Positions 1,441-62,813 of a stretch of 64,000 nucleotides of DNA are shown here, one piece after another (positions within the stretch are counted from its first letter, which is position 1; each line of letters begins with the position of its first letter). The notes beneath the pieces are model-generated. The model was not told the origin of the DNA. It made no database searches and worked only from the letters and a program-made list of their open reading frames with translations. Where the stretch lies: assembly GCF_000383675.1 (NCBI RefSeq), contig NZ_KB911821.1, positions 248,001 through 312,000 on the forward strand, in the 5' to 3' direction. Made by a program: the position numbers and the translations under genes. This DNA is from Terracoccus sp. 273MFTsu3.1. GTDB taxonomy: Bacteria > Actinomycetota > Actinomycetes > Actinomycetales > Dermatophilaceae.

Positions 1441-1522
1441 CCCGAGGGGTGCTCCGGACACGCACCCCCGCGGTGAGCGAGCGAGCGAGCCGTCCACCCC
1501 AGGGCGTATGCCGTCCGCGCCC

Positions 1523-2470
1523 TCAGGCGTGGGCCGCGCGGACCGCGAGGGCGTGACGCACGACCTCGCGACGGGACACGTCGGTGGCGCCCTCGAGGAC
1601 CGGCACCCGGGAGGGCTCGAAGCCCGCGCGGGCCAGGCCCATCCGCAGCTCCGGCCCGCCGAGCCGGCACTCGACGACCCCGCCGACGGGCGAGACGCGG
1701 AGCAGCTCGAAGAGGGTCGCCGCGCTCTCGACCATGGACGAGGAGAAGAGCGGGATGCCGAGCTCGGCTGCCAGGGCCGAGGCGAGGCTCGTGCCGCCGT
1801 AGGCGCCGAAGGCCGTGGACCCCGAACCGCTCACCACGCAGGCGATGCGGCGGTGGCCGTGCGGGCGGTAGGGCACGGCCGGCCAGTCGGTCGACAGCAG
1901 GGTGAACCGGTCGTGGTCGCGCCAGTCCCGGCGCCCGTCGATGCCGGGAAGGTGCAGGAAGTCGCGCGCGAAGCCCTCGTGGACGAAGCCGAGCGACCGC
2001 ACGAGCCCGGCGGACCGGTGGTTGGCCGGCTGGATGTTCGCCTCGACGCGGTGCAGGCCCATCCCGTGCGGCTGGTCGGCGAAGACGAGGTCGAGCGTGA
2101 GGCGCAGCCCCTCGACGAAGAGCCCGCGGCCGGCATACGGGTCGTAGGCGTCGTAGCCCACGGTCGCGCTGCGGAAGGCCCCCTCGACGACGTTCGCGAC
2201 GTTGATCCGCCCGACGAGGCCGTGCGAGCCCTCGGGGTCGAGCGCGTGCACCATGAAGGTGCGGTAGGTCGGCGACTGGCTGTCGATGACGACCGGGAGG
2301 TTGTGCGGGTTCGGCATCGCGAAGTCCGCGAGGCGTCGCTCCGAGAGGGTCACGGCCGCGGCATACGGCTCGATGTCGGCCGTCGACGGGGGACGCACCT
2401 CGACGCGCTCGCCCACGGCGCTGAGCGGCGGCTCGTCGGCGGCGGGCTCGGGCAGGTGCTCAGACGACAA
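1523..2470 (-). CDS. GNAT-family acetyltransferase with C-terminal domain of unknown type
   Basis: Residues ~1-190 form a RimJ/RimL-like GNAT domain. HGLVGRINVANVV and FVEGLRLTLDLVF are seen, then GMGLHRVEANIQPANHRS and LVRSLGFVHEGFAR, the usual acetyl-CoA and substrate strands. After residue ~205 comes about 110 residues that I do not recognise (RRIACVVSGSGS through VRHALAVRAAHA). The open frame runs further upstream, but GAGG spaced before a TTG at 2470 makes that the best start. It overlaps the amidohydrolase stop by 11 bp. A GTG at 2491 is the alternative. The downstream rpsP promoter region follows. Acetyl acceptor unknown. Confidence 0.75.
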   Translation of the reverse strand: MSSEHLPEPAADEPPLSAVGERVEVRPPSTADIEPYAAAVTLSERRLADFAMPNPHNLPVVIDSQSPTYRTFMVHALDPEGSHGLVGRINVANVVEGAFRSATVGYDAYDPYAGRGLFVEGLRLTLDLVFADQPHGMGLHRVEANIQPANHRSAGLVRSLGFVHEGFARDFLHLPGIDGRRDWRDHDRFTLLSTDWPAVPYRPHGHRRIACVVSGSGSTAFGAYGGTSLASALAAELGIPLFSSSMVESAATLFELLRVSPVGGVVECRLGGPELRMGLARAGFEPSRVPVLEGATDVSRREVVRHALAVRAAHA

Positions 2471-3548
2471 CGCGACCTCGCAGCACGACACCCCGTGGGT
2501 CGCCGACGACGGTGACGTCGGCGATCGGGTCGGCGGCGTAGACGACGAGGTCGGCGTCCTCCCCCTCGACGATGCCGGGGCGTCCCAGCCACTCGCGCGC
2601 ACCCCACGTCGCGGCCGCGACGACCTCGGCGTTCGTGAGGCCCGCCTTCGTCAGCTCGACCATCTCCTGCGCGACGAGGCCGTGCGGGAGGCTGCCACCG
2701 GCGTCGGTGCCGACGTAGATCGGCACCCCGGCTTCGTGGGCCGCGCCGACCGTGGCGTGGCGACGCTCGTGCAGGTCGAGCATGTGGCGGTGGTAGTCGG
2801 GGAACTTCTCCTTGGCCGGCTCCGCGAGGTCGGGGAACTGCGCGATGTTGACGAGGGTCGGCACGATGGCGATGCCCTGGGCGGCGAAGGTGTCGATGGA
2901 GTCCTCGCGCAGGCCGGTCGCGTGCTCGATGCAGTCGATCCCGGCGGCGGCGAGGTCGCGCAGGGACTCCTCGCCGAAGCAGTGCGCCGTGACGCGGACC
3001 CCCTCCTGGTGCGCGGCCGCGACCGCGTCGGCGACGGCCTGTCGCGACCAGCTCGGCGCGAGGTCGCCGACGTCGCGGTCGATCCAGTCGCCGACGAGCT
3101 TGACCCACCCGTCGCCGCGGTGCGCCTCGAGCCGGACGTGGCGGACGAGCTCGTCCTCCTCGACCTCGTGGGCGTAGTTGCGGATGTAGCGCCGGGTGCG
3201 GGCGATGTGGCGGCCGGCGCGGATGATCTTGGGCAGGTCGTCGCGATCGTCGACCCAGTGCGTGTCTCCGGGCTGCCCCGCGTCGCGGATGAGCAGCGTG
3301 CCGCGGTCACGGTCGGTGAGCGCCTGCTGCTCGGCCTCCTCGCGCGGCACGCCACCGTGCGGCCCCAGACCGACGTGGCAGTGCGCGTCGACGAGGCCCG
3401 GCAGCACCCAGCCCTCGAGCGTCTGCACGTCGGTTCCGTCGCTCGGTGGCGTGAACGACACCCGTCCCCCGATGACCCACAGCTCGTCGACGACGTCGTC
3501 GGGACCGACGAGCACCCGACCGCGGACGTGGAGCACCGGTGCACTCAT
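2460..3548 (-). CDS. Amidohydrolase-family metal-dependent hydrolase
   Basis: This 362-residue protein has the imidazolonepropionase/dihydroorotase-type fold. LPGLVDAHCHVGLG supplies the first HxH metal ligands. RVTAHCFGEE and DCIEHATG supply later His ligands, and YVGTDAGG the terminal Asp. A C-terminal beta-sandwich (GEDADLVVYAADP) is typical of the family. The ATG at 3548 (MSAPVLHVRGR) is chosen over a longer open frame because family homology begins there. It overlaps the downstream GNAT gene and follows the alpha/beta hydrolase by 10 bp, so the three probably form an operon. Substrate cannot be read from sequence; a cyclic amide or peptide-type amide is likely. Confidence 0.85.
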   Translation of the reverse strand: MSAPVLHVRGRVLVGPDDVVDELWVIGGRVSFTPPSDGTDVQTLEGWVLPGLVDAHCHVGLGPHGGVPREEAEQQALTDRDRGTLLIRDAGQPGDTHWVDDRDDLPKIIRAGRHIARTRRYIRNYAHEVEEDELVRHVRLEAHRGDGWVKLVGDWIDRDVGDLAPSWSRQAVADAVAAAHQEGVRVTAHCFGEESLRDLAAAGIDCIEHATGLREDSIDTFAAQGIAIVPTLVNIAQFPDLAEPAKEKFPDYHRHMLDLHERRHATVGAAHEAGVPIYVGTDAGGSLPHGLVAQEMVELTKAGLTNAEVVAAATWGAREWLGRPGIVEGEDADLVVYAADPIADVTVVGDPRGVVLRGRVVV

Positions 3549-3558: not shown

Positions 3559-4410
3559 CTAACCTCCGTCGCGCGCCAGATCCGTGAGGACGTCCGCCCA
3601 GTGCGCCAGGAGCGTCGCGAGGTGTCCGGCGCCCTCCCGGACGACGAGCCGCGACGTCGGCAGGTGGGCGTGGAGCCACTGCCCGTGCTCGAGGCCGACC
3701 GTCCGGTCACGGTCGCCGTACCAGAGGTGGACCGGGGCGCGGACGTCCCCGAGGTCGACGTCCCAGCCGGCCGTGAAGGCGAGCGCGTCCCGCGACACCC
3801 CGCGGTAGGACGGCACCCCGGGGCGGCCGCTGCCGGTCCACGGCTCGAGGATCTCGGGCGACACGAAGCCGCCCACGCGGACCTTCGCGCGATCACCCGG
3901 TCCGCTCCCCCGTCCGCCGCCGGTCATCGCATCGTCCTGGAGGGCGACCGCCGCGTCGAGGTCCCCGGCGAGCGCCGCGCGGACCGCGGGGTCGTCGGCC
4001 GCGGACGGGTCGAGCTCGAGCAGTGGCCCGACCCCGGCGACGACCCCGACCACGCGCACGCGGTCGGGCAGGACGGCTGCGGCCGCGACGGCATACGGCC
4101 CTCCCCCGGAGACGCCGAGCACCGCGAAGGCGTCGATCCCGAGCGCGTCCGCGACCGAGCCGGCGTCCGACCCGACGGAGGTCAGCGTCGTGGGCCCGTC
4201 CGTCGAACCGCCGTAGCCCGGACGGGAGAACGCGACCAGCCGGACGCCCGCGCGAGAGGCTGCGCCGTCGCCGAGCGCGGCCTGCAGCCGCCCGCCCGGG
4301 GTGCCGTGGAAGAAGACGAGCGGGGCGCCCTGCGGGTCACCGCCGTGCCACACGTCGAGACGCCGCCCGTCGGGCAGCCGCACCCGCGAGCGTCCGTCGG
4401 TGGTGACCAC
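3559..4410 (-). CDS. Alpha/beta hydrolase
   Basis: This 283-residue single-domain alpha/beta hydrolase has an oxyanion-hole motif FFHGTPGG. The nucleophile elbow is GVSGGGPYA (G-x-S-x-G), and the catalytic His lies in EGAGHLATL near the C-terminus. VHLWYGDRDRTV carries the likely acid. No signal peptide is visible, so it is probably cytosolic. It starts with GTG at 4410 and lies 10 bp upstream of the amidohydrolase, suggesting sequential or co-regulated hydrolysis steps (inference). Esterase, lipase and peptidase activities cannot be separated from sequence. Confidence 0.85.
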   Translation of the reverse strand: MVTTDGRSRVRLPDGRRLDVWHGGDPQGAPLVFFHGTPGGRLQAALGDGAASRAGVRLVAFSRPGYGGSTDGPTTLTSVGSDAGSVADALGIDAFAVLGVSGGGPYAVAAAAVLPDRVRVVGVVAGVGPLLELDPSAADDPAVRAALAGDLDAAVALQDDAMTGGGRGSGPGDRAKVRVGGFVSPEILEPWTGSGRPGVPSYRGVSRDALAFTAGWDVDLGDVRAPVHLWYGDRDRTVGLEHGQWLHAHLPTSRLVVREGAGHLATLLAHWADVLTDLARDGG

Positions 4411-4487
4411 GCATCGAGCGTATGCCGCCCGGCGGGCACCGTCACGGGCGTCGGGTCCCGCTCCAGCCGGCTTGCGGCTTGGACGGC

Positions 4488-4963: not shown

Positions 4964-6175
4964 TCAGGGCTCGGCGACCCAGGAGGCCACCTGCTCCGGG
5001 GTCGAGCGCGGGGTGAGCATCCGGTGCGGCACGAACCGGGCGCCGGTGTTGGTCACGAGGTTGGTCGACTCGCGGATGCCGAGTCCCGCGGGCTTGCCGT
5101 CGACGACCCACGTGCCGAGCACCGGCCGGTTGCCCTCGAAGTCGGGCAGCGGCACGTACTGCTGGTAGACGCGCTGCTGGCCCTGGGTCCGCAGCCGCGG
5201 CGAGCGCTCGACGCCGTCGGGTCCGACGACGTCGACGCCGTCCCCCTCCCAGCCGAAGAGCGGCTTCGACACGTAGGCGGACATGCCGTGGGCATGGTCG
5301 AAGTACGCCGGCAGCAGGTTGGGGTGGCCGGGGAACATCTCCCACAGCACCGGCAGCAGGGCCTTGGAGCCGGCGAGGAGCTTCCACGGCGGCTCGATCC
5401 ACTGCGTCGTCGACGAGCCGCCGAGCAGGTAGCCACCGAACGGCGAGCCGAGCATCCACTCGGTCGGGTACATCTTGAAACAGTGCGTGATCGGCTGGCC
5501 GTGCACGTCGACGAAACGGCGCTGCCCGTGGTGCCAGCCGATGTCCTCCATCGTGATGCCGAGCGCGACGAGGCCGGCCTCCTGCGCCGTGTCGCGCAGG
5601 TAGGCGACCGTCGCCCAGTCCTCGGTCGGCTCGTCCTGCCCGACGGCGAAGTGGACGACCTCGACCCCGCTGCGCGCCTTCATCCGGTGCCAGCCCTCGA
5701 CGAGGCGCTCGTGGAGCAGGTTCCACTGGTCGTGGCCCGGGTGCAGGTCCTCGAGCCAGAACCACTGGGTCACAGCGGCCTCGACGAGCCCGGCCGGGGT
5801 GTCGGCGTTGTACTCGAGCAGCCTCGGCGGTCCGTCGCCGTCCCAGGCGAGGTCGAACCGGCCGTAGACCGAGGTCGCGTCGGGGTCGGACAGGGACGCC
5901 GCGAGCCAGGCACCGGCTCCGTCGGGCAGGCCGTGCCGGGCGATGACCTCCGGGTCGTGGGCCATCCGGTGCACCGCCGCGACGGTCATCCGGTGAAGAT
6001 CACCGGTGGCCCGCTCGAGCACCTCCACATCGGCCTCGGTCAGCTCGTAGCAGGCGGTCTCGTCCCAGTACGGGACGGCGGCGCCGTCGGCCGCGCGGTC
6101 GACGGCATACGACAGCCCCTGCTGCTCGACGGTGTCCAGCCAGCCGTCACGCGGGGTGCTCGGGACGCGGTCCAC
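4964..6175 (-). CDS. Glutathionylspermidine-synthase-like ATP-grasp protein (YgiC/YjfC family)
   Basis: The 403-residue protein matches the C-terminal synthetase part of glutathionylspermidine synthase and YgiC/YjfC. Recognisable blocks are YGRFDLAWDGDGPPRLLEYN, TPAGLVEAAVTQW, KLLAGSKALLPVLWE, YVSKPLFGWEGDGV and QYVPLPDFEGNRPVLGTW. The family ligates an amine to a peptide carboxylate using ATP; E. coli YgiC and YjfC lack the amidase half, as here. Actinobacteria generally lack glutathione, so the true substrate is open. GTG at 6175 lies 2 bp after the TGA of the small gene upstream, indicating translational coupling. The DUF350 gene follows. Confidence 0.87.
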   Translation of the reverse strand: MDRVPSTPRDGWLDTVEQQGLSYAVDRAADGAAVPYWDETACYELTEADVEVLERATGDLHRMTVAAVHRMAHDPEVIARHGLPDGAGAWLAASLSDPDATSVYGRFDLAWDGDGPPRLLEYNADTPAGLVEAAVTQWFWLEDLHPGHDQWNLLHERLVEGWHRMKARSGVEVVHFAVGQDEPTEDWATVAYLRDTAQEAGLVALGITMEDIGWHHGQRRFVDVHGQPITHCFKMYPTEWMLGSPFGGYLLGGSSTTQWIEPPWKLLAGSKALLPVLWEMFPGHPNLLPAYFDHAHGMSAYVSKPLFGWEGDGVDVVGPDGVERSPRLRTQGQQRVYQQYVPLPDFEGNRPVLGTWVVDGKPAGLGIRESTNLVTNTGARFVPHRMLTPRSTPEQVASWVAEP

Positions 6176-8366: not shown

Positions 8367-8455
8367 CCGGCAAGGTTATCCGCTCCGCCGACCACTTCCG
8401 ACTCGGCCGGCTCCCGCGGGCCCGAGGGCGTATGCCGCCGCGTAGGGTCGCGCAC

Positions 8456-8948: not shown

Positions 8949-8963
8949 TGACCCGTCGGGTCA
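8949..8963. terminator. Short palindrome at the glnD stop (possible terminator)
   Basis: TGACCCG-T-CGGGTCA overlaps the glnD stop codon, in the 85-bp gap between the convergent Nudix and glnD genes. The stem is short and there is no T-run, so the terminator role is weakly supported. Confidence 0.3.
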
Positions 8964-11324
8964 GTCGGCGTCGCAGGTGTCGATGATCATCGCGACGGCC
9001 TGGGCGGCCCGGGCGGGGGCGAGCTGGCCTCCGCCGAACTCGGTGACGTAGAACGTGTCGAGCGTCTGGCCGGCATACGTCGCGATGTGCGCGGAGCGCA
9101 CCGACAACGACGCCCGGGCGAGCGTGATGCCGATGTCCTGGAGCAGTCCGGGACGGTCGGTCGCGCGGACCTCGACCACGGTCGCGCTGTCGGACGCGCT
9201 GCTGATGACCATCGCGCGCGTCGAGTCGACGGAGCCCGAGCCGGGGCTGCGCACCCCGCTCGACTTGCGCCGCTGGAGCTTGCCGAGGGGCGAGCGGTCC
9301 CCCTTGGCGACGCGGACGAGGTCGCGCGAGATGACCTCGGGAAGCGGTGTCTCGCTGCCCGGTGAGTCGACCCACCACTCGTTGACGGCGAGGCCGTCGA
9401 TGGTGCGGACGATGGCCGAGCGCACGACGAAGCCGTGCGCTGCGAGCAGCCCGGCCGTGTCGGCGAAGAGGCCGGCACGGTCGCGGTCGATGATGTCGAT
9501 GCGGTGGGCGCCACCGAGGGATGACACGGTGACGTAGGGCTCTCCGGACGCGATGCGGTCGAGCGCGTCGTCGGAGAGCGGCAGGGTCTCGATCGGTTCC
9601 ACGACGAGAGGCCCCTCTCCTGGGGTCTGGGTGGTCAGGGCGGTGCGGCAGGCCTGGTAGAGGCGCTGGACGAGACCGGCGCGCCAGTCGCTCCAGGCCT
9701 TGGGGCCGGCGGCGGACGCGTCCGCCTCGGTGAGGGCGCGCAGCAGGTCGAGGGTCATGGCGGACCCGTCGACGGCCTCGGAGAGCGCGGCGATGGTGGC
9801 CGGGTCCTCGGGGTCGCGGCGGGTCGCGAGGTCGACGAGCGTGAGGTGCTCGCGCACGAGCCGCACGACGGTCCGGCGGTCGGCGTCGGTGACGCCCATC
9901 CGCTGCAGCACCGTGTCGGCGAGCTCGGCCCCGGTGACGCTGTGGTCCTGCGACCCCGGCACCTTGCCGATGTCGTGGAGCACCGCGGCGAGCATGAGCA
10001 GGTCGGGCCGCGCGACGTCGCGGACCATGCCGCTCGCCGCCACGACGGTCTCGATGAGGTGGCGGTCGACCGTGTGCCGGTGCACGGCGTTGCGCTGCGG
10101 ACGGCTGCGCACCGCCTTCCACTCCGGGATCCACCGCTCGATGACGCCCGCGAGATCGAGGCCCTCCCACACGGTGACGAGCCCGGGGCCCGACGCGAGC
10201 AGGTCGGCGAAGAGGTTGCGGGCGACCTCCGGCCAGGGCTCCGGCAGGACCGGAGCGGTGGCGGCGAGGTTCTTCAGCGTCGTGGGCGAGAGGGGTATGC
10301 CGCCCCGCGCGGCCACGACGGCGGCGCGCAGCGGGATGATCGGGTCGGACGAGAGGTCGGCGGACGGTCCGAGGACGGCCTCGCCGTCGTGCCGGTAGAG
10401 GCCGTAGCCGAGCGGTGCCAGCTGCGGACGACGGGGGCCGACGCGCAGGGTGCGGGCGCGCTGGGACTGCATGGCCCGGCGCAGGGTGCCGTCGACGGCA
10501 TACGCGATGGTGCGTGCCGACGTCGAGAGGTCGGTGAGGAGGTCGTCGGCGTCGGTGTAGCCGAGCAGCGCGGCGCACGCGTCCTGGTCGTCACGGGTGA
10601 GCCGGTCCCTCCCCCGCCCGGTGACGACGTGGATGGCGTCACGCACGTCGAGGATGCGCTCGTAGGCCTCGTCGACCTCGCCGTGCGGCCGGTCGGTCAG
10701 CCAGGCCGCGGTGAGCGCCCGCAGCACCGACATGTCACGGAGGCCGCCGTGGGCCTCCTTGAGGTCCGGCTCGATGAGGTGGGCGAGGTCGCCCTGGCGG
10801 GCGTGGCGCTGGATCACCGACTCGTGCATCTCACCGAGCCGGGTGCGGGCGTTGGCCCTCCAGTCGTGCGCCACGGTGGACCGGGCCGCGTTGACGACGT
10901 CGGCATCACCGGCCACGTGCGTGAGGTCGAGCAGCCCGACCGCCGCGGAGAGGTCGTCGGACGCGACGGCCCGGCACTCGGCCACGGTGCGGACACTGTG
11001 GTCGAGCCGGACCCCGGCGTCCCAGATCGGGTACCAGAGCTTGTCGGCGAAGGCGCCGACCTCCTTGCCCGACAGGCCTCGTGGGTGGTGGACGAGGACC
11101 AGGTCGTAGTCGCTGAGCGGTCCGCCGTCGCCGCGGGCGAGCGAGCCGACCGCTGCGAGGGCGACTCCTTCGTGCCGACGCCCCGCGCACGCCTCGCGCC
11201 AGAGCTCCTGGAGCCACCCGAACCCGAACTCCGCGAGCGCCCGGCGGCGGGTCTGGCCCGCGCCGGGCGTCGCGAAGGTTCGGGTGCCGGCGAGGTCGAG
11301 ACGTCGTGAGGTCACATCCGTCAT
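8961..11324 (-). CDS. glnD: GlnD: PII uridylyl-/adenylyltransferase and removing enzyme
   Basis: GlnD modifies PII in response to glutamine; in actinobacteria the modification is adenylylation of Tyr51. The 787-residue protein has a nucleotidyltransferase motif (GSLARGDGGPLSDYDL, residues ~50-65). It also has an HD phosphohydrolase domain (LAAVLHDIGKVPGS, then HSVTGAELA) and two C-terminal ACT domains (RIDIIDRDRAGLFADTAGLL and VRATDRPGLLQDIGITLARA) that sense glutamine. It is third in amtB-glnB-glnD, 68 bp after glnB. Length is at the short end for the family (780-890), as is usual for actinobacteria. Confidence 0.95.
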   Translation of the reverse strand: MTDVTSRRLDLAGTRTFATPGAGQTRRRALAEFGFGWLQELWREACAGRRHEGVALAAVGSLARGDGGPLSDYDLVLVHHPRGLSGKEVGAFADKLWYPIWDAGVRLDHSVRTVAECRAVASDDLSAAVGLLDLTHVAGDADVVNAARSTVAHDWRANARTRLGEMHESVIQRHARQGDLAHLIEPDLKEAHGGLRDMSVLRALTAAWLTDRPHGEVDEAYERILDVRDAIHVVTGRGRDRLTRDDQDACAALLGYTDADDLLTDLSTSARTIAYAVDGTLRRAMQSQRARTLRVGPRRPQLAPLGYGLYRHDGEAVLGPSADLSSDPIIPLRAAVVAARGGIPLSPTTLKNLAATAPVLPEPWPEVARNLFADLLASGPGLVTVWEGLDLAGVIERWIPEWKAVRSRPQRNAVHRHTVDRHLIETVVAASGMVRDVARPDLLMLAAVLHDIGKVPGSQDHSVTGAELADTVLQRMGVTDADRRTVVRLVREHLTLVDLATRRDPEDPATIAALSEAVDGSAMTLDLLRALTEADASAAGPKAWSDWRAGLVQRLYQACRTALTTQTPGEGPLVVEPIETLPLSDDALDRIASGEPYVTVSSLGGAHRIDIIDRDRAGLFADTAGLLAAHGFVVRSAIVRTIDGLAVNEWWVDSPGSETPLPEVISRDLVRVAKGDRSPLGKLQRRKSSGVRSPGSGSVDSTRAMVISSASDSATVVEVRATDRPGLLQDIGITLARASLSVRSAHIATYAGQTLDTFYVTEFGGGQLAPARAAQAVAMIIDTCDAD

Positions 11325-13337: not shown

Positions 13338-13373
13338 CACGAGCACGTATGCCGTCCGGCACACGTGCTCGTG
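13338..13373 (-). terminator. Perfect stem-loop after ftsY
   Basis: CACGAGCACGT (13338-13348) pairs perfectly with ACGTGCTCGTG (13363-13373) around a 14-nt loop that holds the GTATGCCG octamer and an inner GCCG/CGGC-type pair. It lies 26 bp beyond the ftsY stop on the minus strand and upstream of the amtB promoter. There is no T-tract, as with many terminators in high-GC actinobacteria. Confidence 0.6.
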
Positions 13374-15040: not shown

Positions 15041-15063
15041 ACGGACGGCGTATGCCGTGCCGT
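15041..15063 (-). terminator. Hairpin at the smc stop containing a GTATGCCG copy
   Basis: ACGGACGGC (15041-15049) pairs with GCCGTGCCGT (15054-15063), with one bulge, around a GTAT loop. It overlaps the last bases of smc. The GTATGCCG octamer forms the loop and the first part of the right arm. Terminator role uncertain. Confidence 0.35.
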
Positions 15064-18641: not shown

Positions 18642-18760
18642 GACCCGAGAAATCCTTTGTCCAGCCAGCCAGCGATCCCGGTCAGCGTACTAGTCGCGGG
18701 GCCGTGCTCCGGGGAGGTGAGCGCCTGCGCGTGCGGGGACGGACGGCATACCGTGGTCGG

Positions 18761-20053: not shown

Positions 20054-20185
20054 CTCGGCATCCTGCTCGACAGCCACCCCGACACGGTATGCCGCGTGGC
20101 GCCGCAACGGGAGCCCCACGCGTACCTATGCTCACAACAGGCACGGCGGTGACTCCACTCACCGCGGCCCACGGAAGGAGCGACG

Positions 20186-25917: not shown

Positions 25918-25958
25918 AGACGGCACTGTATGCCGCCCCCCTCCCCTCGCGTCGATTG

Positions 25959-38661: not shown

Positions 38662-39435
38662 GTGCCGAGCGACGCCCCCTCCCACCGGAAGTCGTGGCCC
38701 GCAGCCCCTGAGGGCTTCTTCACGGTCGAGGCGGCCGGCCTGCGCTGGCTCGGGGAGCCCCAGGCGCACGGCGGCGCCCGTGTCGTCGAGGTCCGCGGCG
38801 TCGGTCCCGGTCACATCGACCTCGCCCGGCTGCATCCCGCTCGTCCCACGGAGGACGCGGCCGAGGCCCTCGGGCGAGGTCTCGCCGTGACGCACGCTGC
38901 GGGCGCGCCGGCCTTCGGGTCTCCCCCCGCGGGCTGGTCCGGTGACGCCTGGATCGGGCGCCAGACGCAGAGCAACGACCCGACGCCGACGTGGGGCCCG
39001 TTCTACGCCGAGCAGCGGGTGCGGCCCTTCGTGCGTCGGGCGCTCGAGCGCGGTCACCTCGACGCCGCCGGCGCCCGCACCGTCGACCGCGTCTGCGACC
39101 GGCTCTCGTCCGGCGACTTCGACGACGACCGTCTCGTGGCTCGCATCCACGGCGACCTGTGGTCAGGCAACGTCGTGTTCACCTCCGACGGCGCCGTCCT
39201 CATCGACCCGGCCGCGCACGGCGGGCACGGCCTCACCGACGTCGCGATGCTGGCCCTCTTCGGGTGCCCGGGCCTGGGCCGCGTCGTCGCCGCCTACGAG
39301 GAGGCCGCCGGACTCCGCCCCGGGTGGCGCGAGCTCGTGGGACTGCACCAGCTGCACCCGCTCGCCGTGCACGCGGCGTCGCACGGACCTGCGTATGCCG
39401 CCCAGCTCGTCGAGACGGCCCGGACGTTCGCGTGA
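38662..39435 (+). CDS. Fructosamine/ketosamine-3-kinase family protein
   Basis: The 257-residue protein has an aminoglycoside-phosphotransferase-like kinase fold. The catalytic loop is [19 protein letters not shown] and the DFG-equivalent is [40 protein letters not shown] is specific to fructosamine kinases. The family phosphorylates glycated amines so that the sugar is released. GTG at 38662 or 38653 are possible starts. It is divergent from the FakA-like gene and upstream of rpmB. Confidence 0.87.
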
Positions 39436-41849: not shown

Positions 41850-41915
41850 GGGCGTATGCCGTGTGGCCGGCCCGGGCGTGACCGGCCGTGCCCGCACTGG
41901 CGGGGTCGGCTCGCT

Positions 41916-43101: not shown

Positions 43102-44187
43102 GTGGGCACCGAAGCGGATTCACAGCACCTGCACGTCGAGACCTTCCTCGTGGCGGCGGGACGCCCCGAGCGCTCCCCCGGCTCGCCCGCGAACGTCGCC
43201 GTCGAGCTGACCTCGACGTATGCCGCGGACGGGCCCGTCAACTACGCCCGGTCGGGCAACCCGACGTGGAACGCGTTCGAGGAGGCGCTCGGCGGCCTCG
43301 AGGGTGGTCACGCGCTCGTGCACGCGTCGGGCATGGGAGCCATCTCGGCGGCCCTCGCGCTGGTCCCGGCGGGCGGCACGGTCGTCGCCCCCGACACGAC
43401 GTACAACGGCACGGGCGACCTGCTCGTCGCTCACGAGAAGGGCGGCGGCACGGTCCTCCGCGTGCACGCCACCGACACGGCCGGCTTCCTCGCCGCCCTC
43501 GAGTCGGCCGACCTGCTCTGGCTCGAGTCGCCGACGAACCCGCTCATGGACGTCACCGAGCTCGACGTCGTCCTCGCCCGGTCACGCGAGCTCGGCGTGA
43601 CGAGCGTCGTCGACAACACCCTCTCGACACCGCTGCTGTGCCGACCCCTCTCGCTCGGCGCCGACGTCGTCGTGCACTCCGTGACGAAGTACCTCTCGGG
43701 TCACAGCGACGTCGTGCTCGGCGCGACCGTCGTCGCCGACACCGAGCGCGGGCGCGAGATCGGCGAGCGGCTGCGTCGCCACCGCACCCTGCACGGGGCG
43801 ATCGCCGGGCCGATGGAGGTCTTCCTCGCGCTGCGCGGACTGCGGACGCTGTCCGTGCGGTTCGAGCGGGCCGGCGCCAGCGCGGCCGAGCTGGCCCGTC
43901 GCCTCGAGGGCCATCCGGCTGTGGAGCGCGTGCGCTACCCGGGCACCGGCGCCATGGTCTCGATCGACGTGGCCGGTGACGCCGACGCCGCCGAGCGGGT
44001 CTGCGCCTCGACGCGTCTCTGGCTGCACGCGACCAGCCTCGGCGGCGTCGAGTCACAGCTCGAACGCCGTCGGCGGCACCCGTCGGAGTCGGAGCAGGTG
44101 CCGGTCAACCTCGTCCGGCTGTCGGTCGGCATCGAGCACGTCGACGACCTCTGGGCCGACCTCGCACAGGCACTCGACCACGTCTGA
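43102..44187 (+). CDS. PLP-dependent trans-sulfuration enzyme (cystathionine gamma-synthase/lyase family)
   Basis: The 361-residue protein has the Cys/Met-metabolism PLP fold. NYARSGNPTWNAFEEALGGL, SGMGAISAALALVPAGGTVV and ADLLWLESPTNPLMDV precede the PLP-binding Asp in TSVVDNTLSTPLLCRPL, and the Schiff-base Lys lies in VVVHSVTKYLSGHSDVVLG. The C-terminus has GGVESQLERRRRHP. It could act as cystathionine gamma-synthase or lyase; the sequence does not decide. GTG at 43102. A 17-bp tandem repeat begins at its last codons. Confidence 0.9.
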   Translation: MGTEADSQHLHVETFLVAAGRPERSPGSPANVAVELTSTYAADGPVNYARSGNPTWNAFEEALGGLEGGHALVHASGMGAISAALALVPAGGTVVAPDTTYNGTGDLLVAHEKGGGTVLRVHATDTAGFLAALESADLLWLESPTNPLMDVTELDVVLARSRELGVTSVVDNTLSTPLLCRPLSLGADVVVHSVTKYLSGHSDVVLGATVVADTERGREIGERLRRHRTLHGAIAGPMEVFLALRGLRTLSVRFERAGASAAELARRLEGHPAVERVRYPGTGAMVSIDVAGDADAAERVCASTRLWLHATSLGGVESQLERRRRHPSESEQVPVNLVRLSVGIEHVDDLWADLAQALDHV

Positions 44188-44223: not shown

Positions 44224-44308
44224 CCCGGTCCCCTCGGCGGCTCGGCGGGTCAGTAGCCGGCGGACGCGCCCTTCACGGCACACCGGACCAGGCGGACGGC
44301 ATACTCCC

Positions 44309-48138: not shown

Positions 48139-48732
48139 TCAGGCGGGGGTCGTCACCGGCTTGTGGCTCGGCCGGTGCGACTCGAAATCGGCGACGAGAT
48201 CCTCGTGTCGCAGGGTCAGTCCGATGTCGTCGAGGCCCTCGAGCAGGCGCCAGCGCGTGTAGTCGTCGATCTCGAAGGGCGCGACGATCTCCCCGGCGTG
48301 GACGGTGCGAGCCACGAGGTCGACCGAGATCTCGGTGCCGGGGTTGTTCTCGAGGTACTTCCAGATCAGCTCGACGTCGTCCTGCGAGACGATCGCGGTG
48401 AGCAGGCCCTGCTTGCCGCTGTTCCCGCGGAAGATGTCGGCGAAGCGCGAGCTGATGACGACCCGGAAGCCCCAGTTCATCAGGGCCCACACGGCGTGCT
48501 CGCGACTCGAGCCGGTGCCGAAGTCGGGGCCGGCCACGAGGACCGAGCCCTCGGCATACACCGGGTTGTTGAGGACGAACGACTCGTCCTTGCGCCAGGC
48601 GGCGAAGAGGCCGTCCTCGAAGCCGGTGCGCGTCACGCGCTTGAGGTACTCGGCAGGGATGATCTGGTCGGTGTCGACGTTGCTGCGGCGCAGCGGCACA
48701 CCGATGCCCGTGTGGGTCGTGAACGCGTCCAT
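48139..48732 (-). CDS. leuD: 3-isopropylmalate dehydratase small subunit
   Basis: LeuD is the swivelling subunit of isopropylmalate isomerase. The 197-residue protein has [20 protein letters not shown], the family start, then [20 protein letters not shown], the substrate-binding loop, and AKP-like [20 protein letters not shown]. It is 3 bp downstream of leuC, with which it forms the enzyme that converts 2- to 3-isopropylmalate in leucine synthesis. Confidence 0.97.
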
Positions 48733-52333: not shown

Positions 52334-53341
52334 GTGCTCAAGGTTGGTTGGAAGGCGTCCGCGGAGCAGTTCGGTCCGCGCGACCTCGTCACGTTGGCCA
52401 CGCAGGCCGAGCAGGTCGGGCTCGACTCGGCCTTCATCTCCGACCACTTCCAGCCCTGGCGGCACCAGCAGGGTCACGCGCCCTTCGCGATGAGCTGGCT
52501 CGCGGCTGCGGGCGAGCGCACCGAGCGGATCCAGCTCGGGACGTCGGTCATGACCCCGACGTTCCGCTACAACCCGGCCGTCGTGGCGCAGGCCTTCGGG
52601 ACGCTCGGAGCCCTCAACCCCGGACGCATCGTCCTCGGCATCGGTACCGGGGAAGCCCTCAACGAGGTGGCCGTCGGTGCCGCGGGCTCGCCGTGGCCGG
52701 AGTTCAAGGAGCGCTTCGCGCGCCTGCGCGAGGCCGTGACGCTCATGCGCAGGCTGTGGACCGAGGAGCGCGTCGACTTCGAGGGCGACTACTACCGCAC
52801 GCACGCGGCGACGGTCTACGACCGCCCGGAGCAGCCCATCCCCGTCTACGTCGCGGCCGGCGGTCCGCTCGTCGCAAGGTATGCCGGCCGGTCGGGTGAG
52901 GGTTTCATCTGCACGTCCGGCAAGGGCCGCGAGCTCTACGAGGACAAGCTGCTGCCTGCCGTCGACGAGGGCCTGGCCAAGTCCGGGCGCACGCGTGACG
53001 ACATCGACCGGATGATCGAGATCAAGCTCTCCTACGACCGTGACCCCGACCAGGCGCTGCACAACGTGCGCTTCTGGGCGCCCCTGTCGCTCAGTGCCGA
53101 GCAGAAGCACGGTGTCGACGACCCGGTGGAGATGGAACGCCTGGCCGACGAGCTGTCCGATGAGGAGATCGCCAAGCGCTGGATCGTCACGAGCGACCCC
53201 GCCGAGGCCGTCGACGCCGTGCGCCAGTACGTCGACTGGGGATTCAACCACGTCGTCTTCCACGCGCCCGGCCACGACCAGGGCCGCTTCCTCGAGCACT
53301 TCTCGGCCGACGTCCTGCCCGGCCTGCGCGAGCTCAGCTGA
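52334..53341 (+). CDS. fgd: F420-dependent glucose-6-phosphate dehydrogenase (FGD)
   Basis: The 335-residue LLM-class enzyme aligns by eye along its length with mycobacterial Fgd1. [72 protein letters not shown] and [20 protein letters not shown] are seen. Fgd oxidises glucose-6-phosphate and is the main source of reduced F420. GTG at 52334 with AAGGAG upstream. The cofC-type gene is about 5 kb away. It overlaps the convergent DUF4188 gene by 8 bp. Confidence 0.93.
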
Positions 53342-53870
53342 CGGCGCCCTCCGGGGCCACGTCGGGGACGGCGACCTCGCTCCGGCCGATCCGGGCGTGC
53401 CGTCGACGGCTGCGGTCCTCGGTCAGACCGAAGGCCTTGCCGAGCCCCGTCGGCGGCATCCCGACGTAGAGGCTCTCGTGCGCACCGGCCGGGACGGCAT
53501 ACGTCTCGTGCCAGATGCCGACGGCGCCGGTCGCCCTTCGGCTCCGACGGTAGAAGGCCGTCCAGGCCGGCCGGTGGCGTCGCTCGGGGTCGTTGGCGTA
53601 CGCGTACACCGACTCGACGTCCCGCCAGTACTGAACGAGCGTGGGCCCTCCTGCGCCGATGAGCGTGCGGGCCTCGAGGAAGCCGAGGTCCGGCCCCTCC
53701 CCGCGTGCGGCGGCGGCCTTGGCGGCATACAGCTCGCTGATCATGCCCGGCATCGCGGCGAACACCGGACCCCAGAGGTCGGGGCGCCACGGGTGGTTGA
53801 CCCGCATGCCGATGAGGAAGACGGCCAGCTCGCCGTCGTGGGTGTGGCTGGTGTGGACGAAACCGCTCAT
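53334..53870 (-). CDS. DUF4188 family protein (monooxygenase-like ferredoxin-fold)
   Basis: The 178-residue protein matches DUF4188. [60 protein letters not shown] and [20 protein letters not shown] are characteristic. Members are small alpha/beta ferredoxin-like proteins annotated as putative monooxygenases; substrate unknown. ATG at 53870 with AGAGG upstream. It is transcribed divergently from a MerR regulator across a gap with two AT-rich dyads, so it is likely the MerR target. Confidence 0.82.
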
Positions 53871-56820: not shown

Positions 56821-58532
56821 GGCCGCTTCTCGAGGACGGAGGCCAGCGTGGCGGTCTTGTCGGGGGTCCAGCCGGGTGGGTTCGTCACGGCGACCCAGGA
56901 CTCGAGGTTGGACGTCGCGGAGTAGAGGTGGCCGTAGCCCATCGGGATGCTGCCCGCGCCGGGCAGGTCGAGCAGCACCTGCCACATCGTCACGAGCGGG
57001 AACCAGCCCATCCGCGCCGACACGTCCGGGCCCCGGTCGCCGTCCGTGAGCCACTCCGGCTGGCTGAAGGCCATGCTCGGTGAGAAGAAGACGATCGGGT
57101 CGCTCGCGTGCTGGAGGTAGACCAGCCGGGTCGGGCCCCAGGTCGCGCCCCCGCGGTCGAGACCGTTCTCCTCCGCGGTGAAGCGCACCGTGCGGCCCTG
57201 CTCGTAGACCGGCAGGTATGCCGGGCTGTCGGGTTGACGCTGCGCGGTGAGCCGGGCGTGCAGGTCGTTGACGAACGGCGGTCCCGACATGAGGGCGCCG
57301 TCGATCGGCTCGTTGATGACGTTGATCGAGGACAGGATGCTCTCGACCCCGAACGAGCCGAGCGACAGGCCGTAGAGGTAGAGCTTGGGCCGGGACGCCT
57401 CGGGCAGCGTCGACCAGTACTGGTGGATGGTGTCGAAGACGACCCGGGAGGTCTCCCGGACGGCGTCCTGGTCGGCCAGCAGCGAGATCCACGACGGCAG
57501 GTAGGAGTACTGCACGCCGGCGATGGCGGTGTCACCGTTCCAGAGGAACTCGAGCGGGTCGGTGCCGTTCTGGTCGAGGAAGCCGGTCCCGGTCGTCGTG
57601 GCGACGACGAGGACCTTCCGGTCGAACGCGCCGGTGCGTCTCAGCTCGGCCAGGACGACGTCGGCCCGCCCCTGGACCGTGTCGGCGGAGCGGAGACCGG
57701 CATAGACCCGGATCGGCTCCTTGGCGCCGCCGCCGTTCACGGCGTCGAGCTCGGCGACGGTCGGTCCCCCGCCGACGAAGTAGCGGCCCTGGCGGCCGAG
57801 CAGGTCCCAGCTGGACAGCGACTGCGGGCTGCCGGACCGCTCGGGGACCTGCGGACGGTTCATGTCCTCGGCGATGAGGGTGTCCCGTGGCGCGAAGGTG
57901 TTGTTGGCCACGGCGAAGAAACCGTTGACGAGGACGCCGGTCAGCAGCGACCAGATCAGGGCGAGCAGGACCGCCGAGCCGACGACGACCGCGACCCGGC
58001 GGGGCAGCCGGCGACCGAGCCAGCCGAACACGGTGCGGAAGAGCAGGCGCAGGCTCCGCGCGACGACGAGGATGAGGACGGCCAGCAGCACCGTGACCAC
58101 GATGACGACGGGCCACTGGGTCGGCGACGCCGGCTCCATCCCGTAGAGCGTGCGGATCTCGTTCTGCCAGCCGACCTGGCGCCACCCGGTGAAGACCGCC
58201 GCCCAGAGACCGAGGCCCACGAAGATCGCCACGAGCACGCGCCGCGCCCGGCCGGGCACGCTCGGGATCCCGAGGTAGCGCCAGAGCGCCTGGGCTCCCG
58301 CACCGATGCCGTAGCCGATCATCACCGTGACACCCGAGGCGATGCCCTGCACCACCGCGCCACGAGGCAGCAGCGAGGGCAGCAGCGACAGCGCGAAGAA
58401 CCACGCCGCCACGGTCAGGCCCACACCGGAGAACGTCATGTCGAAGACTCGGCGGGGAGCGCCGAGTGCGGGGCGCCAGGAGCGGCGACGGGCGGTGACC
58501 TCCGGAGGGGCGACGGCGGTCGTTGCAGTCAT
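56805..58532 (-). CDS. Membrane alpha/beta-hydrolase (Abhydrolase_9 family)
   Basis: The 575-residue protein has four N-terminal helices (GLTVAAWFFALSLLPSLLPR, then VMIGYGIGAGAQALWRYL, PVVIVVTVLLAVLILVVARS and VVVGSAVLLALIWSLLTGVL). A C-terminal alpha/beta-hydrolase domain follows (~225-575). YLYGLSLGSFGVESILSS is the nucleophile elbow, VVATTTGTGFLDQNGTDPLE and YLQHASDPIVFFSPSMAF are family blocks. Abhydrolase_9 proteins are typical of actinobacteria; substrate unknown, lipids or membrane esters are plausible. It converges on the MprF-like gene, both acting at the membrane. Confidence 0.85.
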   Translation of the reverse strand: MTATTAVAPPEVTARRRSWRPALGAPRRVFDMTFSGVGLTVAAWFFALSLLPSLLPRGAVVQGIASGVTVMIGYGIGAGAQALWRYLGIPSVPGRARRVLVAIFVGLGLWAAVFTGWRQVGWQNEIRTLYGMEPASPTQWPVVIVVTVLLAVLILVVARSLRLLFRTVFGWLGRRLPRRVAVVVGSAVLLALIWSLLTGVLVNGFFAVANNTFAPRDTLIAEDMNRPQVPERSGSPQSLSSWDLLGRQGRYFVGGGPTVAELDAVNGGGAKEPIRVYAGLRSADTVQGRADVVLAELRRTGAFDRKVLVVATTTGTGFLDQNGTDPLEFLWNGDTAIAGVQYSYLPSWISLLADQDAVRETSRVVFDTIHQYWSTLPEASRPKLYLYGLSLGSFGVESILSSINVINEPIDGALMSGPPFVNDLHARLTAQRQPDSPAYLPVYEQGRTVRFTAEENGLDRGGATWGPTRLVYLQHASDPIVFFSPSMAFSQPEWLTDGDRGPDVSARMGWFPLVTMWQVLLDLPGAGSIPMGYGHLYSATSNLESWVAVTNPPGWTPDKTATLASVLEKRPYKDT

Positions 58533-59725: not shown

Positions 59726-60373
59726 TCACGGATCGAGGCCGAAGAGGGGCAGGGCCGCGTCGACACCCTCGACGACGACGTGCCGCGACCAGCCCGAGGC
59801 ATCCCACGTCGCCCGGTCGAGACGCACGTGCTGCAGCGTCTGCCCCGAGTGCTCGAGCACCGAACGGTGGGTGTCGCGGTAGCCGAGGGAGCGCGAGACG
59901 CCGAGGGACGCCGCGTTGTCGACCACTGCCGAACTGATCGCCGCCTCGGCCCCCAGCGGGCCGAAGGCGAGGGCGAGCACCGCGGCGCGCATCTGCCTGC
60001 CGAGCCCCCTCCCCCGCGCCCGGGCGACGAGCCAGGACGAGGAGTCGACAGTGCGGTCGGAGCGCCAGTCGGGTCCCTCGAGCCACTGGGCGCCCACGAC
60101 GACACCGGCCGAACGGACGACGAAGGGCAACGCCCAGTCGTCGGGCGACCACATCCCGAGAGCGCGCCAGTAGCCCTGCGCGACGACGGCCCGACGGTTC
60201 GCCGGGACGTCGAGGCCGGCATACGTCGTCGCGTGCGGGTTGAGCTCGAGGTCGTCGGGCAGCAGGGCCCACACCGTCGGCAGGTCCGCCTCGGTCATGA
60301 CCGTCAGGTCGAGGTCGGCCGTTCGCAGGCGGATGCCGTGCAGCGGCCAGGACCAGCCCCCCACGCCCTCCAC
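59726..60373 (-). CDS. GNAT-family N-acetyltransferase
   Basis: The 215-residue protein is a RimJ/RimL-like GNAT. It has acetyl-CoA loop VARARGRGLGRQMRAAVLAL, then AISSAVVDNAASLGVSRSLG and SWLVARARGRGLGR, typical of the family. It sits 10 bp downstream of gltX and 13 bp upstream of the HAD gene, so the three are probably one operon. The acceptor (protein N-terminus or small molecule) is not known. Confidence 0.88.
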   Translation of the reverse strand: MEGVGGWSWPLHGIRLRTADLDLTVMTEADLPTVWALLPDDLELNPHATTYAGLDVPANRRAVVAQGYWRALGMWSPDDWALPFVVRSAGVVVGAQWLEGPDWRSDRTVDSSSWLVARARGRGLGRQMRAAVLALAFGPLGAEAAISSAVVDNAASLGVSRSLGYRDTHRSVLEHSGQTLQHVRLDRATWDASGWSRHVVVEGVDAALPLFGLDP

Positions 60374-60383: not shown

Positions 60384-62000
60384 TCAGAGCGAGTCGCGCA
60401 GCGACCGGAGGCGGCTCAGGGTCGAGGTCTTGCCGAGGATCTCCATCGACTCGAACAGCGGCGGCGAGATCCGCGCGCCCGAGACGGCCGTGCGCAGCGG
60501 GCCGAAGGCGAGGCGCGGCTTGATGCCGAGCCCGTCGACGATCGCGGCGCGCAGCGCCTCCTCGATGCCCGCGGCATGCCAGGGGCTGCCCGTGCCGAGG
60601 ACACCGGTGCCGTGGTCGTCGATGTCGCCGAGCACCTTGAGCGCCGCGTCGAGCACGGCCGGCGCGTCGTCCTTGAGCTGGGCACGCGCGTCGTCGTCGA
60701 TGACGAGCTGGTCGTCGGCGACGAAGAACGGACGCACGAGCGCCGGCGCCTCGGTGAGCAGGGCCATGCGGGTCTGGATGAGCTCCGCCACGGACTTGAG
60801 GCGCGCCAGCTCACCGAGCGACTGCGTCTCGCCGAGCACGCCGTCGGCGACGAGATAGGGCAGCAGCCGGCTCGCGAACTCGCCCACCTCGAGCGAGCGG
60901 ATGTAGACGCCGTTGAGCCAGTCGAGCTTCTTGAGGTCGAAGATCGGGCCGATCGGGTTGACCTTGGCCCAGTCGAAGGTGCGGCTGAACTCCTCGAAGG
61001 TGAAGACCTCGACGTCTGCTCCCTCGGCGTCCTGCTGCGGCGGGTAGGCCAGCAGCGCAAGGAAGTTCACGAGAGCCTCGGGTAGGTAGCCCTGCTCGCG
61101 GAACCACGTGAGACGCGCGGCGGGGTTCTTCCGCTTGGAGATCTTGGACTTGTCGGTGTTGCGCAGCAGCGGCATGTGCGCGAACGCCGGCGGCTCGAGC
61201 CCGAGCCAGCGGTAGAGCAGGACGTGCTTCGGCGTGGAGCTGATCCACTCCTCGCCGCGCACGACGTGGGTGATGCCCATGAGGTGGTCGTCGACGACGA
61301 CCGCGAGGTGGTAGGTCGGGAACCCGTCGGCCTTGAGGATCACCTGGTCGTCGGGGCGGGGCGCCGAGACCTTGCCGCGGATGACGTCGTCGAAGACGAG
61401 CGGCACGTCGTCGGGGACGAGCATGCGCACGACCGGCGTCTCGCTGAAGCCGGGCAGCGCGGCGCGCTCCTCACGGGTCTTGCCGACGCAGAGACGGTCG
61501 TAGCCGGTCGGCTGCTTCGTCTTCTGCTGGATCTCGCGCATCTGGTCGAGGCGCTCCTTGGAGCACCAGCAGTGGTACGCGTGGCCGTCCTCGAGGAGGC
61601 GCTCGACGTAGGGGCGGTACGTGTCCAGACGCTCGGACTGGCGGTACGGCGCGAAGGGCCCACCGATGTCCGGCCCCTCGTCCCAGTGCAGCCCGAGCCA
61701 CGCGAGGGTGTCGTAGAGCTGGGCCTCGGAGTCCTCGCGGAAGCGCGCCCGGTCGGTGTCCTCGACGCGGAGGACGAACTGGCCGCCCTGCTGCCGGGTG
61801 AAGGCGAGGTTGAAGAGCGACATGTAGGCCGTGCCCACGTGCGGGTCGCCGGTCGGGCTCGGGGCGACACGGGTGCGCACCGGGCCGGAGCCGTCCGAGG
61901 TCGAGACGCGGACGTGCTCCTCGGTGCGGATCTCGACGTGCTCGCCGGCGTCGCTGGCGGGGGAAGACGGCATACCTGTGCTGGTCGTGTTGTCGCTCAT
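60384..62000 (-). CDS. gltX: Glutamyl-tRNA synthetase
   Basis: The 538-residue class I synthetase has the HIGH-type motif in VAPSPTGDPHVGTAYMSLFN, the catalytic loop EDTDRARFREDSEAQLYDTL, and the KMSKS-type motif SKISKRKNPAARL. Actinobacteria usually lack GlnRS, so GltX charges both tRNA-Glu and tRNA-Gln with Glu, the latter then amidated by GatCAB. Both tRNA genes lie downstream in this window. It has a ~45-residue N-terminal extension rich in Ser/Thr; the start could be further in. Confidence 0.96.
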   Translation of the reverse strand: MSDNTTSTGMPSSPASDAGEHVEIRTEEHVRVSTSDGSGPVRTRVAPSPTGDPHVGTAYMSLFNLAFTRQQGGQFVLRVEDTDRARFREDSEAQLYDTLAWLGLHWDEGPDIGGPFAPYRQSERLDTYRPYVERLLEDGHAYHCWCSKERLDQMREIQQKTKQPTGYDRLCVGKTREERAALPGFSETPVVRMLVPDDVPLVFDDVIRGKVSAPRPDDQVILKADGFPTYHLAVVVDDHLMGITHVVRGEEWISSTPKHVLLYRWLGLEPPAFAHMPLLRNTDKSKISKRKNPAARLTWFREQGYLPEALVNFLALLAYPPQQDAEGADVEVFTFEEFSRTFDWAKVNPIGPIFDLKKLDWLNGVYIRSLEVGEFASRLLPYLVADGVLGETQSLGELARLKSVAELIQTRMALLTEAPALVRPFFVADDQLVIDDDARAQLKDDAPAVLDAALKVLGDIDDHGTGVLGTGSPWHAAGIEEALRAAIVDGLGIKPRLAFGPLRTAVSGARISPPLFESMEILGKTSTLSRLRSLRDSL

Positions 62001-62033
62001 GGTGCGACCCAGCCTAGTGGGAGCCCGAAAGGG

Positions 62034-62813
62034 TCAGCGACGCACGAAGGTGTTGGTCAGCGACCCGATGCCGGCGATCTCGACCGTGACCTGCTGACCC
62101 GCCTCGACGAGCCCGACGCCGGCCGGGGTGCCGGTCAGGATGACGTCACCGGGCAGCAGCGTGAACGCCGCCGAGGCGTACTCGATGATCGTCGCGATGC
62201 CGTGGATCATGTCGGCGGTCGTGCCGTCCTGCTTCACGTCGCCGTCGAGCGTCGTGACGATCGAGAGGTCGGCGGTGTCGAGCTCGGTCTCGACCCACGG
62301 GCCGAGCGGGCAGCTCGTGTCGAAGCCCTTGGCGCGGGCCCACTGGCCGTCGCTGCGCTGCCAGTCCCGGGCCGTGACGTCGTTGGCGATGGTGTAGCCG
62401 TAGATGCACTCGGCCGCGTCCTTGGCCTTGACGCCCTTCGTGATCGTCTTGATGACGACCGCGAGCTCGCCCTCGTAGGAGATCTCGCTGCTGCCGGCCG
62501 GGAGCACGACCGGGTCGAACGGACCGACGACGGCGGTGTTGGGCTTGAAGAACATCATCGGCTCGGCCGGGGCCTCGCCGCCCATCTCCTTGGCGTGGTC
62601 TGCGTAGTTCTTGCCGATCGCCACGATCTTGGAGCGCGGGATGACGGGGGCGAGGAGGCGCACGTCGTCGAGCATGACCGGCGGCTGTCCGCTCGGCTGG
62701 AGGCCGATGTAGAGCGGGTCGCCGGCCAGCGGCGTGATCACCTCGCTGCCGGGGTCGCCCTGGACGATGCCGTATGCCGGGTCGTCCCCGGTCGTGAACC
62801 TCGCGATGCGCAC
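62034..62813 (-). CDS. Fumarylacetoacetate hydrolase family protein
   Basis: The 259-residue protein has the FAH C-terminal fold: AIGKNYADHAKEMGGEAP, SEISYEGELAVVIKTITKGV and GYTIANDVTARDWQRSDGQW carry metal ligands Glu/Glu/Asp. GDVILTGTPAGVGLVEAGQQ is a later conserved block. Members are 2-hydroxyhepta-2,4-diene-1,7-dioate isomerase-, acylpyruvase- or oxaloacetate tautomerase-like. It precedes gltX by 33 bp in the same direction, an association often seen in actinobacteria. Confidence 0.9.
   Translation of the reverse strand: MRIARFTTGDDPAYGIVQGDPGSEVITPLAGDPLYIGLQPSGQPPVMLDDVRLLAPVIPRSKIVAIGKNYADHAKEMGGEAPAEPMMFFKPNTAVVGPFDPVVLPAGSSEISYEGELAVVIKTITKGVKAKDAAECIYGYTIANDVTARDWQRSDGQWARAKGFDTSCPLGPWVETELDTADLSIVTTLDGDVKQDGTTADMIHGIATIIEYASAAFTLLPGDVILTGTPAGVGLVEAGQQVTVEIAGIGSLTNTFVRR

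Follow-up and report, generated by a model that had tools for sequence, protein, structure and literature searches.

What accounts for the frequency of the octamer GTATGCCG (complement-strand form CGGCATAC) in the DNA of Terracoccus sp. 273MFTsu3.1? The question arises from a 64-kb stretch of contig NZ_KB911821.1 (positions 248,001 to 312,000, hereafter the window) in the 4.94-Mb, 18-contig genome of this bacterium (G000); the GlnD protein encoded in the window is 99% identical, in the best segment, to that of Terrabacter sp. Root85, which places the genome in Terrabacter or very close to it. The original prediction gave about 33 copies where about two were expected, and exactly 33 were found (15 on the plus and 18 on the minus strand, spanning 1506-62779), against 0.71 on average, and never more than 4, in 100 dinucleotide-preserving shuffles and a third-order Markov expectation of 1.67. 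From its distribution within and among genomes, GTATGCCG is probably a DNA uptake sequence, i.e. a tag of self DNA for natural transformation.

By second- or third-order Markov z score, no 8-mer of the window was more over-represented than GTATGCCG. A maximal-order (order 6) model of the window did not mark it as an outlier, as is expected of a word whose 7-mers occur almost only within it. The whole genome contains 2,244 copies (1,133 on the plus and 1,111 on the minus strand), so that the strand balance noted earlier for the window extends to the genome, and the reversed-reading control occurs 116 and 141 times per strand. Null models were applied to samples of G000 that included the window (464 kb, later 564 kb), with genes called by a simple codon-usage script and not by a published gene finder. 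Markov and codon-shuffled nulls had been named as refuting tests, as had an absence of enrichment outside coding sequence. In the 564 kb, shuffling of synonymous codons within 477 genes (486 kb) gave 16.9 expected copies (standard deviation 4.4), none of the 100 rounds exceeding 27, whereas 204 were observed, and the gaps between genes (77.8 kb) contained 86 copies against 4.7 expected from a third-order Markov model; neither null accounted for the word, and the excess extends outside coding sequence.

The core of the word is sharp. Among 306 occurrences of TATGC in the 464 kb, 274 continue as TATGCC and 251 belong to a complete GTATGCCG; in the window, 33 of 35 GTATGC cores extend to GTATGCCG, with C as the preceding base in 22 of these 33 and G in another 6, in agreement with what had been described. 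The flanks are weakly constrained, with C before the word in 65% of cases and T (47%) or C (32%) after it, followed by C (63%), and no AT-rich tracts lie within 30 bases. The word differs from its own complement CGGCATAC and is thus non-palindromic. A separate palindrome, CACTCGAGTG, is also over-represented in the G000 sample (38, both strands counted, against 0.7 expected), and its 8-mers appear in inverted arrangements.

An even spread through genes and gaps had also been claimed, and this did not hold. The copies in the 464 kb comprise 177 coding, 72 intergenic and 2 edge copies, with a density three times higher between genes (1.26 versus 0.43 per kb), and the window itself has a copy-free gap of 9.7 kb. 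In gaps between genes of the same direction, 40 of 54 sites are closer to the 3' end of the upstream gene (524 kb; p 0.0005). Inside genes, the sense orientation is favoured (123 sense versus 81 antisense, n = 204; p 0.004), and a preferred orientation in reading frames is a stated trait of known uptake sequences (PMC2346458). The frame NNG-TAT-GCC (Tyr-Ala) is used by 101 of 177 in-gene copies and NCG-GCA-TAC (Ala-Tyr) by 54. Half of the sampled TAT (110/220) and ATA (20/40) codons lie inside GTATGCCG, so that codon preference in this 72% GC genome gives way to the word.

Copies also form inverted pairs, either inward (GTATGCCG-N(3-30)-CGGCATAC) or outward, the latter likewise an inverted repeat. 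G000 has 37 inward and 16 outward pairs, and G051 has 207, the highest inward number, and 38. Summed over 42 chosen users of the motif, there were 1,710 inward and 908 outward pairs; the 32 of these users with known site counts had 1,136 inward and 617 outward pairs, compared with 280 of each expected from density alone. A direct-repeat control, restricted to 793 kb of four genomes, gave 12 inverted and 3 direct pairs. Of the 46 perfect intergenic stems of at least 10 bp in the 464 kb, 4 hold GTATGCCG in an arm, and these are terminator-like stems of 11 to 18 bp.

Among the genomes surveyed, enrichment of the word is limited to part of one family. In a survey of 98 genomes of the order, 37 of the 60 from the family of G000 had at least 0.2 GTATGCCG sites per kb, the next highest value being 0.08, while none of the 38 genomes from 19 other families was enriched or exceeded 0.07 per kb. 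When 8-mers were scanned de novo in stretches from 16 non-users of the family, a one-letter relative of GTATGCCG ranked top in four: GGATGCCG in G024 (54 observed, 7.9 expected), GTATGCGG in G028 (15 and 1.1), and GTACGCCG in G056 (57 and 9.8) and G048 (42 and 7.7). Weaker signs of a related word were seen in G027 and G009, and none in the other ten. Several genomes have frequent words of other kinds: in G048 a separate repeat element yields a second over-represented word, GGTCGAGTAG/CTACTCGACC (16 against 0.2 expected in 40 kb), which is also over-represented in G027, and the motif-free G045, G016 and G049 have CCCCCTTCGC, GGTGCGCATC and CATCGCTACG, without obvious relation to GTATGCCG.

Counts of the dialect words over 149 family genomes placed GTACGCCG at 1,050-2,130 per strand in G031, G048, G056, G122, G126, G146 and G151 and at lower numbers in G032, G100 and G114; GGATGCCG at 980-2,260 per strand in G024, G110, G034, G052, G124, G147 and G161; and GTATGCGG at 230-620 per strand in all four sampled genomes of genus g21. 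G009 (GGATGCCG, 674/662) is weakly above the family background, and G027 (GTACGCCG, 356/396) gives a weak sign of a dialect; apart from these two weak cases, 14 of the first 60 family genomes lack a clear signal of any of the four words. Dialects mostly track genus, a statement made without a resolved species tree, and there are exceptions. Genus g3 is mixed, with GTACGCCG in G151 and G100 and background levels in G010 and G129; G052 carries two dialects together; and G114 uses GTACGCCG while its genus mates G033 and G140 use GTATGCCG, and the three are united in a tree of tadA (support 100/98) that supports local statements only, 16 of its 27 inner forks being open and its bootstrap unsettled. 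Beyond the family, GGATGCCG is abundant in family f19, where its density reaches 0.6 copies per kb or more in 12 of 22 genomes; in G095 it ranked first among the 8-mers of a 20-kb stretch (31 against 4.9 expected), and it did not do so in the stretches of G398 and G079. Of 20 stretches from other families of the order that were scanned de novo, three were too short to use; apart from f19 (G079), a related word emerged only in f20, and weakly, with CGATGCCG occurring 12 times in G080 against 2.6 expected.

Conservation of position in relatives had been proposed as a check, and it was compared over 21 kb around glnD, with contiguity of the site in the relative required. In six Terrabacter loci the number of sites kept ranges from 6 to 13, out of 11 to 14. 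T. tumescens retains 10 of 13 at 87% identity, where a generic 8-mer is kept at 43%. MAHUQ-38 keeps 6. Two strains of Humibacillus xanthopallidus retain 9 of 13 and 9 of 11 at 83-84% DNA identity (generic 8-mer 31% and 33%), and I. oryzae retains 5 of 10 (generic 8-mer 33%). At the same 83% identity, the locus of Intrasporangium flavum is without any copy (0 of 12 kept). Humibacillus DSM 29435 and a Humibacillus metagenome-assembled genome keep 0 of 8 each, and GGATGCCG is frequent in their glnD loci (18 and 22 in 22 kb). Where a site has been lost, CTACGCCG is often found in its place, which encodes the same Tyr-Ala with preferred codons. Positions are thus mostly kept among close users of GTATGCCG and lost where the motif is absent or another dialect is in use.

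The genes expected of a transformation apparatus were considered as correlates. ComEC is present in 57 of the 60 family genomes and therefore does not discriminate between users and non-users; it was uninformative as a correlate. In G000, ComEA domains (SLBB and helix-hairpin-helix) adjoin ComEC, and Tad clusters are also present. The Tad cluster near prfB encodes TadA, two T2SSF proteins (TadB/C-like) and a single TadE/G-like protein; two further short proteins match no Pfam family and are read as pilins by their position. Of the 39 dialect-positive genomes, 38 have an orthologue of the prfB-adjacent tadA (at least 63% identity), as do 8 of the 15 negative ones; the weak-dialect G009 and G027 were kept out of this comparison, and both have that gene. 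In 7 of 56 genomes (G001, G005, G006, G015, G025, G029 and G036) tadA is split or partial, and its breaks recur at two places, near residues 173 and 270, the former adjoining the Walker A motif that starts at residue 165. The four inserts examined (in G006, G005, G001 and G015) are 5-11 kb long; three contain large serine integrases confirmed by Pfam, and the fourth, that of G001, has an integrase-looking open reading frame (ORF) and a phage capsid. Elsewhere, mobile elements hit the competence genes comK, comM, comFA and comYC (PMC4774983), and transformation of Micrococcus luteus needs both of its tad loci (PMC4322843). The inserts, together with this requirement, therefore support a role of the prfB-adjacent Tad pilus in transformation but do not prove it.

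Counts in resident mobile elements were mostly low, but a clean depletion was not established. The four tadA inserts contain 4 copies of GTATGCCG against 23.0 expected from host density, and a prophage of G043, with boundaries set by hand, contains 1 against about 4. Ten phage capsid loci were found in 9 of 40 genomes, one of them being that in the G001 tadA insert; six with known host density have 3 copies against 9.8 expected and three more, for which no host density was at hand, have 1 in all, a sample too small to weigh. In G000, an 11.9-kb motif-free stretch of low GC content (62%; C1:84608-96482) with kinase-like and histidine-kinase-like ORFs may have been acquired horizontally.

If GTATGCCG is an uptake sequence, extracellular DNA carrying it would be bound at the cell surface by a sequence-specific reader, for which a Tad/Flp pilin or ComEA is a candidate, drawn in through ComEC and recombined. 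Copies arising by mutation would spread, and persist even against codon preference, because tagged fragments would enter more often. A shift in the specificity of the reader would let a genome drift to a new dialect, and copies would decay once the system is lost.

Several results weigh against this interpretation. To our knowledge neither uptake nor transformation has been reported for these genera; the search on this point was made under the name Intrasporangiaceae only and not by genus. The excess of inward pairs is absent in G012, G019, G026 and G055, and in Intrasporangium calvum none of the 6 copies in the glnD locus lies at a window site (0 of 6). The association of tadA with dialect (p 0.00025) comes from a Fisher test that ignores shared ancestry; G055 is rich in the motif and lacks the prfB-adjacent tadA, and 7 of 15 motif-free genomes have tadA intact. 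Few copies lie in the ComEC loci as well (9 against 26.8 expected in 12 genera), and such local variation makes the depletion in tadA inserts less decisive; a mobile-looking region of G011 with hand-set boundaries has 3 copies in about 7.6 kb, i.e. no depletion. Type IV PilT scored above the cut-off in just 1 of the 60 family genomes, so that it was rejected as a correlate and the known class of reader looks absent from most of them. Percent identities of Tad pilins in about 12 genomes, a sample of little power, follow ancestry and not dialect, and a GGATGCCG user and a GTATGCCG user have candidate minor pilins that are equally close to those of Terrabacter; the pilin candidates thus gave no dialect signal by this measure. 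A minor type IV pilin as receptor characterises the readers known so far, and the function of an uptake sequence need not depend on one.

Among the three classes suggested in the original prediction, the uptake sequence is well supported by the intergenic enrichment, the inverted pairs, the dialects and the dialect-dependent conservation, whereas nothing found speaks for the nucleoid-protein site or the orphan-methyltransferase target (no search was aimed at methyltransferase genes), and both account poorly for the dialects and the inverted pairs. It is unlikely that GTATGCCG is the site of a chromosomal protein acting on resident DNA in nucleoid structure, segregation or repair, with the dialects as drift of specificity. 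Such a protein would fit the genome-wide spread on both strands and the conserved positions, and dialects could follow a changing DNA-binding protein, but it would not predict the excess of inverted pairs, the placement at 3' ends of genes, the patchy presence within one family or the low counts in resident integrated elements. Many chromosomal DNA-binding proteins are dimers, and GTATGCCG contains no palindrome.

A hotspot of recombination comparable to Chi, regulating a nuclease of the RecBCD, AddAB or AdnAB type, seems very unlikely. The length of eight bases, the genome-wide excess and the reading-frame preference resemble Chi, but no strand polarity is seen, either in the totals of 1,133 and 1,111 or along the sequence, where the plus-strand share is 40-67% in eleven 40-kb bins and one 24-kb bin (replication origin and direction unmapped), and the three-fold intergenic enrichment and hairpin pairs are foreign to Chi.

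We give hardly any credence to a functionless mutational or repair bias, Vsr-like or by gene conversion, that would make the word from its near neighbours. It would act everywhere and on both strands, and some one-mismatch words are below their third-order expectation: GTCTGCCG (16 observed, 46 expected) and the position-6 variants GTATGACG (4/19), GTATGGCG (0/10) and GTATGTCG (2/11), the expectations for the last three being inflated by the letters of GTATGCCG itself. The transition neighbours GTACGCCG (48/26) and GTGTGCCG (32/30) are not depleted, however, so that this test of conversion bias was mixed in outcome, with no clear donor word, and inverted pairs, intergenic excess and dialects would be left unexplained. 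It is equally improbable that the word is recognised by an orphan DNA methyltransferase or belongs to a restriction-modification system, for although an asymmetric eight-base word could serve as a methylation target and specificities differ between strains, restriction sites are normally avoided rather than enriched, and inverted pairs, gene-end placement and conservation would not follow.

An uptake sequence thus remains the interpretation that we favour. We consider it reasonably probable, though with somewhat less assurance than for the uptake function itself, that this would be a third, independently evolved uptake-sequence system and the first in Gram-positives, with at least four dialects (invariant letters G-A-GC-G) in two actinobacterial families, a receptor of a new kind based on the Tad/Flp pilus or ComEA, and gene flow between soil actinobacteria partitioned by dialect. 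If so, it would be the first such tag known outside two Gram-negative families, and self-tagging of genomes would have evolved more than twice. As these Gram-positives are mostly without type IV PilT, a new class of sequence-specific DNA receptor (Tad pilus or ComEA) would be implied. Many soil actinobacteria would be predicted to be naturally transformable, the right octamer on donor DNA may make strains tractable, and dialects would predict partners in gene exchange. Why uptake sequences evolve would become testable in another dialect-rich phylum.

The 33 copies of the window are distributed as follows. Intergenic copies on the plus strand lie at 1506..1513, just 3' of a GNAT gene (1523-2416, minus); at 4420..4427, between 3559-4410 and 4488-4910 (both minus); at 8430..8437, between 6726-8366 (minus, Ffh-like SRP54) and 8456-8875 (plus); at 13347..13354, within an arm of a strong hairpin in the gap 3' of an FtsY-like gene (13399-14613, minus), the opposite arm carrying the one-mismatch form CGGCACAC; at 15050..15057, within a few bases of the 3' end of the SMC gene (15063-18641, minus); at 20087..20094, between 19760-20077 (minus) and 20186-22177 (plus); at 25928..25935, between 23992-25917 and 25959-27254 (both minus); and at 41854..41861, between the convergent genes 41454-41849 (plus) and 41916-43052 (minus). 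Those on the minus strand are at 18744..18751, between the SMC gene and 18800-19411 (plus), and at 44297..44304, between the convergent genes 43102-44187 (plus) and 44309-45289 (minus).

Minus-strand copies in sense orientation within minus-strand genes are at 2131..2138 and 2359..2366 (GNAT gene), 4089..4096 (3559-4410, alpha/beta hydrolase), 6103..6110 (4964-6175, GSP_synth), 9071..9078 and 10496..10503 (glnD, 8961-11324), 24009..24016 and 25602..25609 (23992-25917, peptidase M3), 37987..37994 (36707-38488, DAK2/FakA-like), 42536..42543 (41916-43052, D-Ala-D-Ala ligase), 48552..48559 (48139-48732), 53495..53502 and 53723..53730 (53334-53870), 60217..60224 (59726-60373) and 61968..61975 (gltX, 60384-62000). 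Plus-strand sense copies in plus-strand genes are at 20974..20981 (20186-22177, acyltransferase 3), 39393..39400 (38662-39435), 43218..43225 (43102-44187) and 52879..52886 (52334-53341, luciferase-like monooxygenase). Antisense copies are found on the plus strand in minus-strand genes at 10295..10302 (glnD), 57216..57223 (56805-58439, Abhydrolase_9) and 62772..62779 (62034-62813), and on the minus strand at 28248..28255 in a plus-strand gene (27278-28552, pyridine nucleotide-disulphide oxidoreductase). The motif-free run of 9.7 kb (28255-37987) includes mutM-like, rnc, yceD, rsmD-like and recG genes; in other organisms uptake sequences reportedly concentrate in genome-maintenance genes.

Literature searches, with subscription papers and preprints outside their reach, found no title on such a motif among the 20 listed of 643 papers for the exact octamer, and no actinobacterial uptake sequence among the titles and beginnings of abstracts listed. 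Among known words, cyanobacterial HIP1 is likewise a very frequent octamer of debated function; HIP1 is palindromic, whereas GTATGCCG is not. The uptake sequences of Neisseriaceae (DUS, DNA uptake sequences; PMC3630211) are closer, since they too occur in thousands of copies inside and between genes, form inverted pairs tied to terminators and have clade-wise dialects of short words, with some family members lacking any and one genome using two dialects, as G052 does here. In sequence GTATGCCG is unlike DUS, although CGTATGCCGTC has ATGCCGTC in common with AT-DUS; the match is probably due to chance because the CTG invariant in DUS is absent. The hosts also differ, the present ones being high-GC Gram-positives in most of which Tad/Flp genes replace type IV PilT, and in which no ComP is known. 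With the uptake signal sequences (USS) of Pasteurellaceae (PMC12616744, PMC2346458) GTATGCCG shares a short core, genome-wide enrichment, dialect types and a preferred orientation in reading frames; unlike USS, for which a type IV minor pilin is the proposed reader, it has no AT-rich tracts within 30 bases and a weak flank preference only. Neisseriaceae and Pasteurellaceae are named in PMC12616744 as the sole families in which such self-recognition is known. As GTATGCCG shows most of the sequence hallmarks of DUS and USS that could be tested, we read it as a third, putative actinobacterial system of this kind. The term "uptake sequence" does not appear in the main text of the paper on Flp/Tad-dependent transformation in M. 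luteus (PMC4322843), but the organism it describes is, like those studied here, an actinobacterium with ComEA, ComEC and Tad genes, and has two tad loci.

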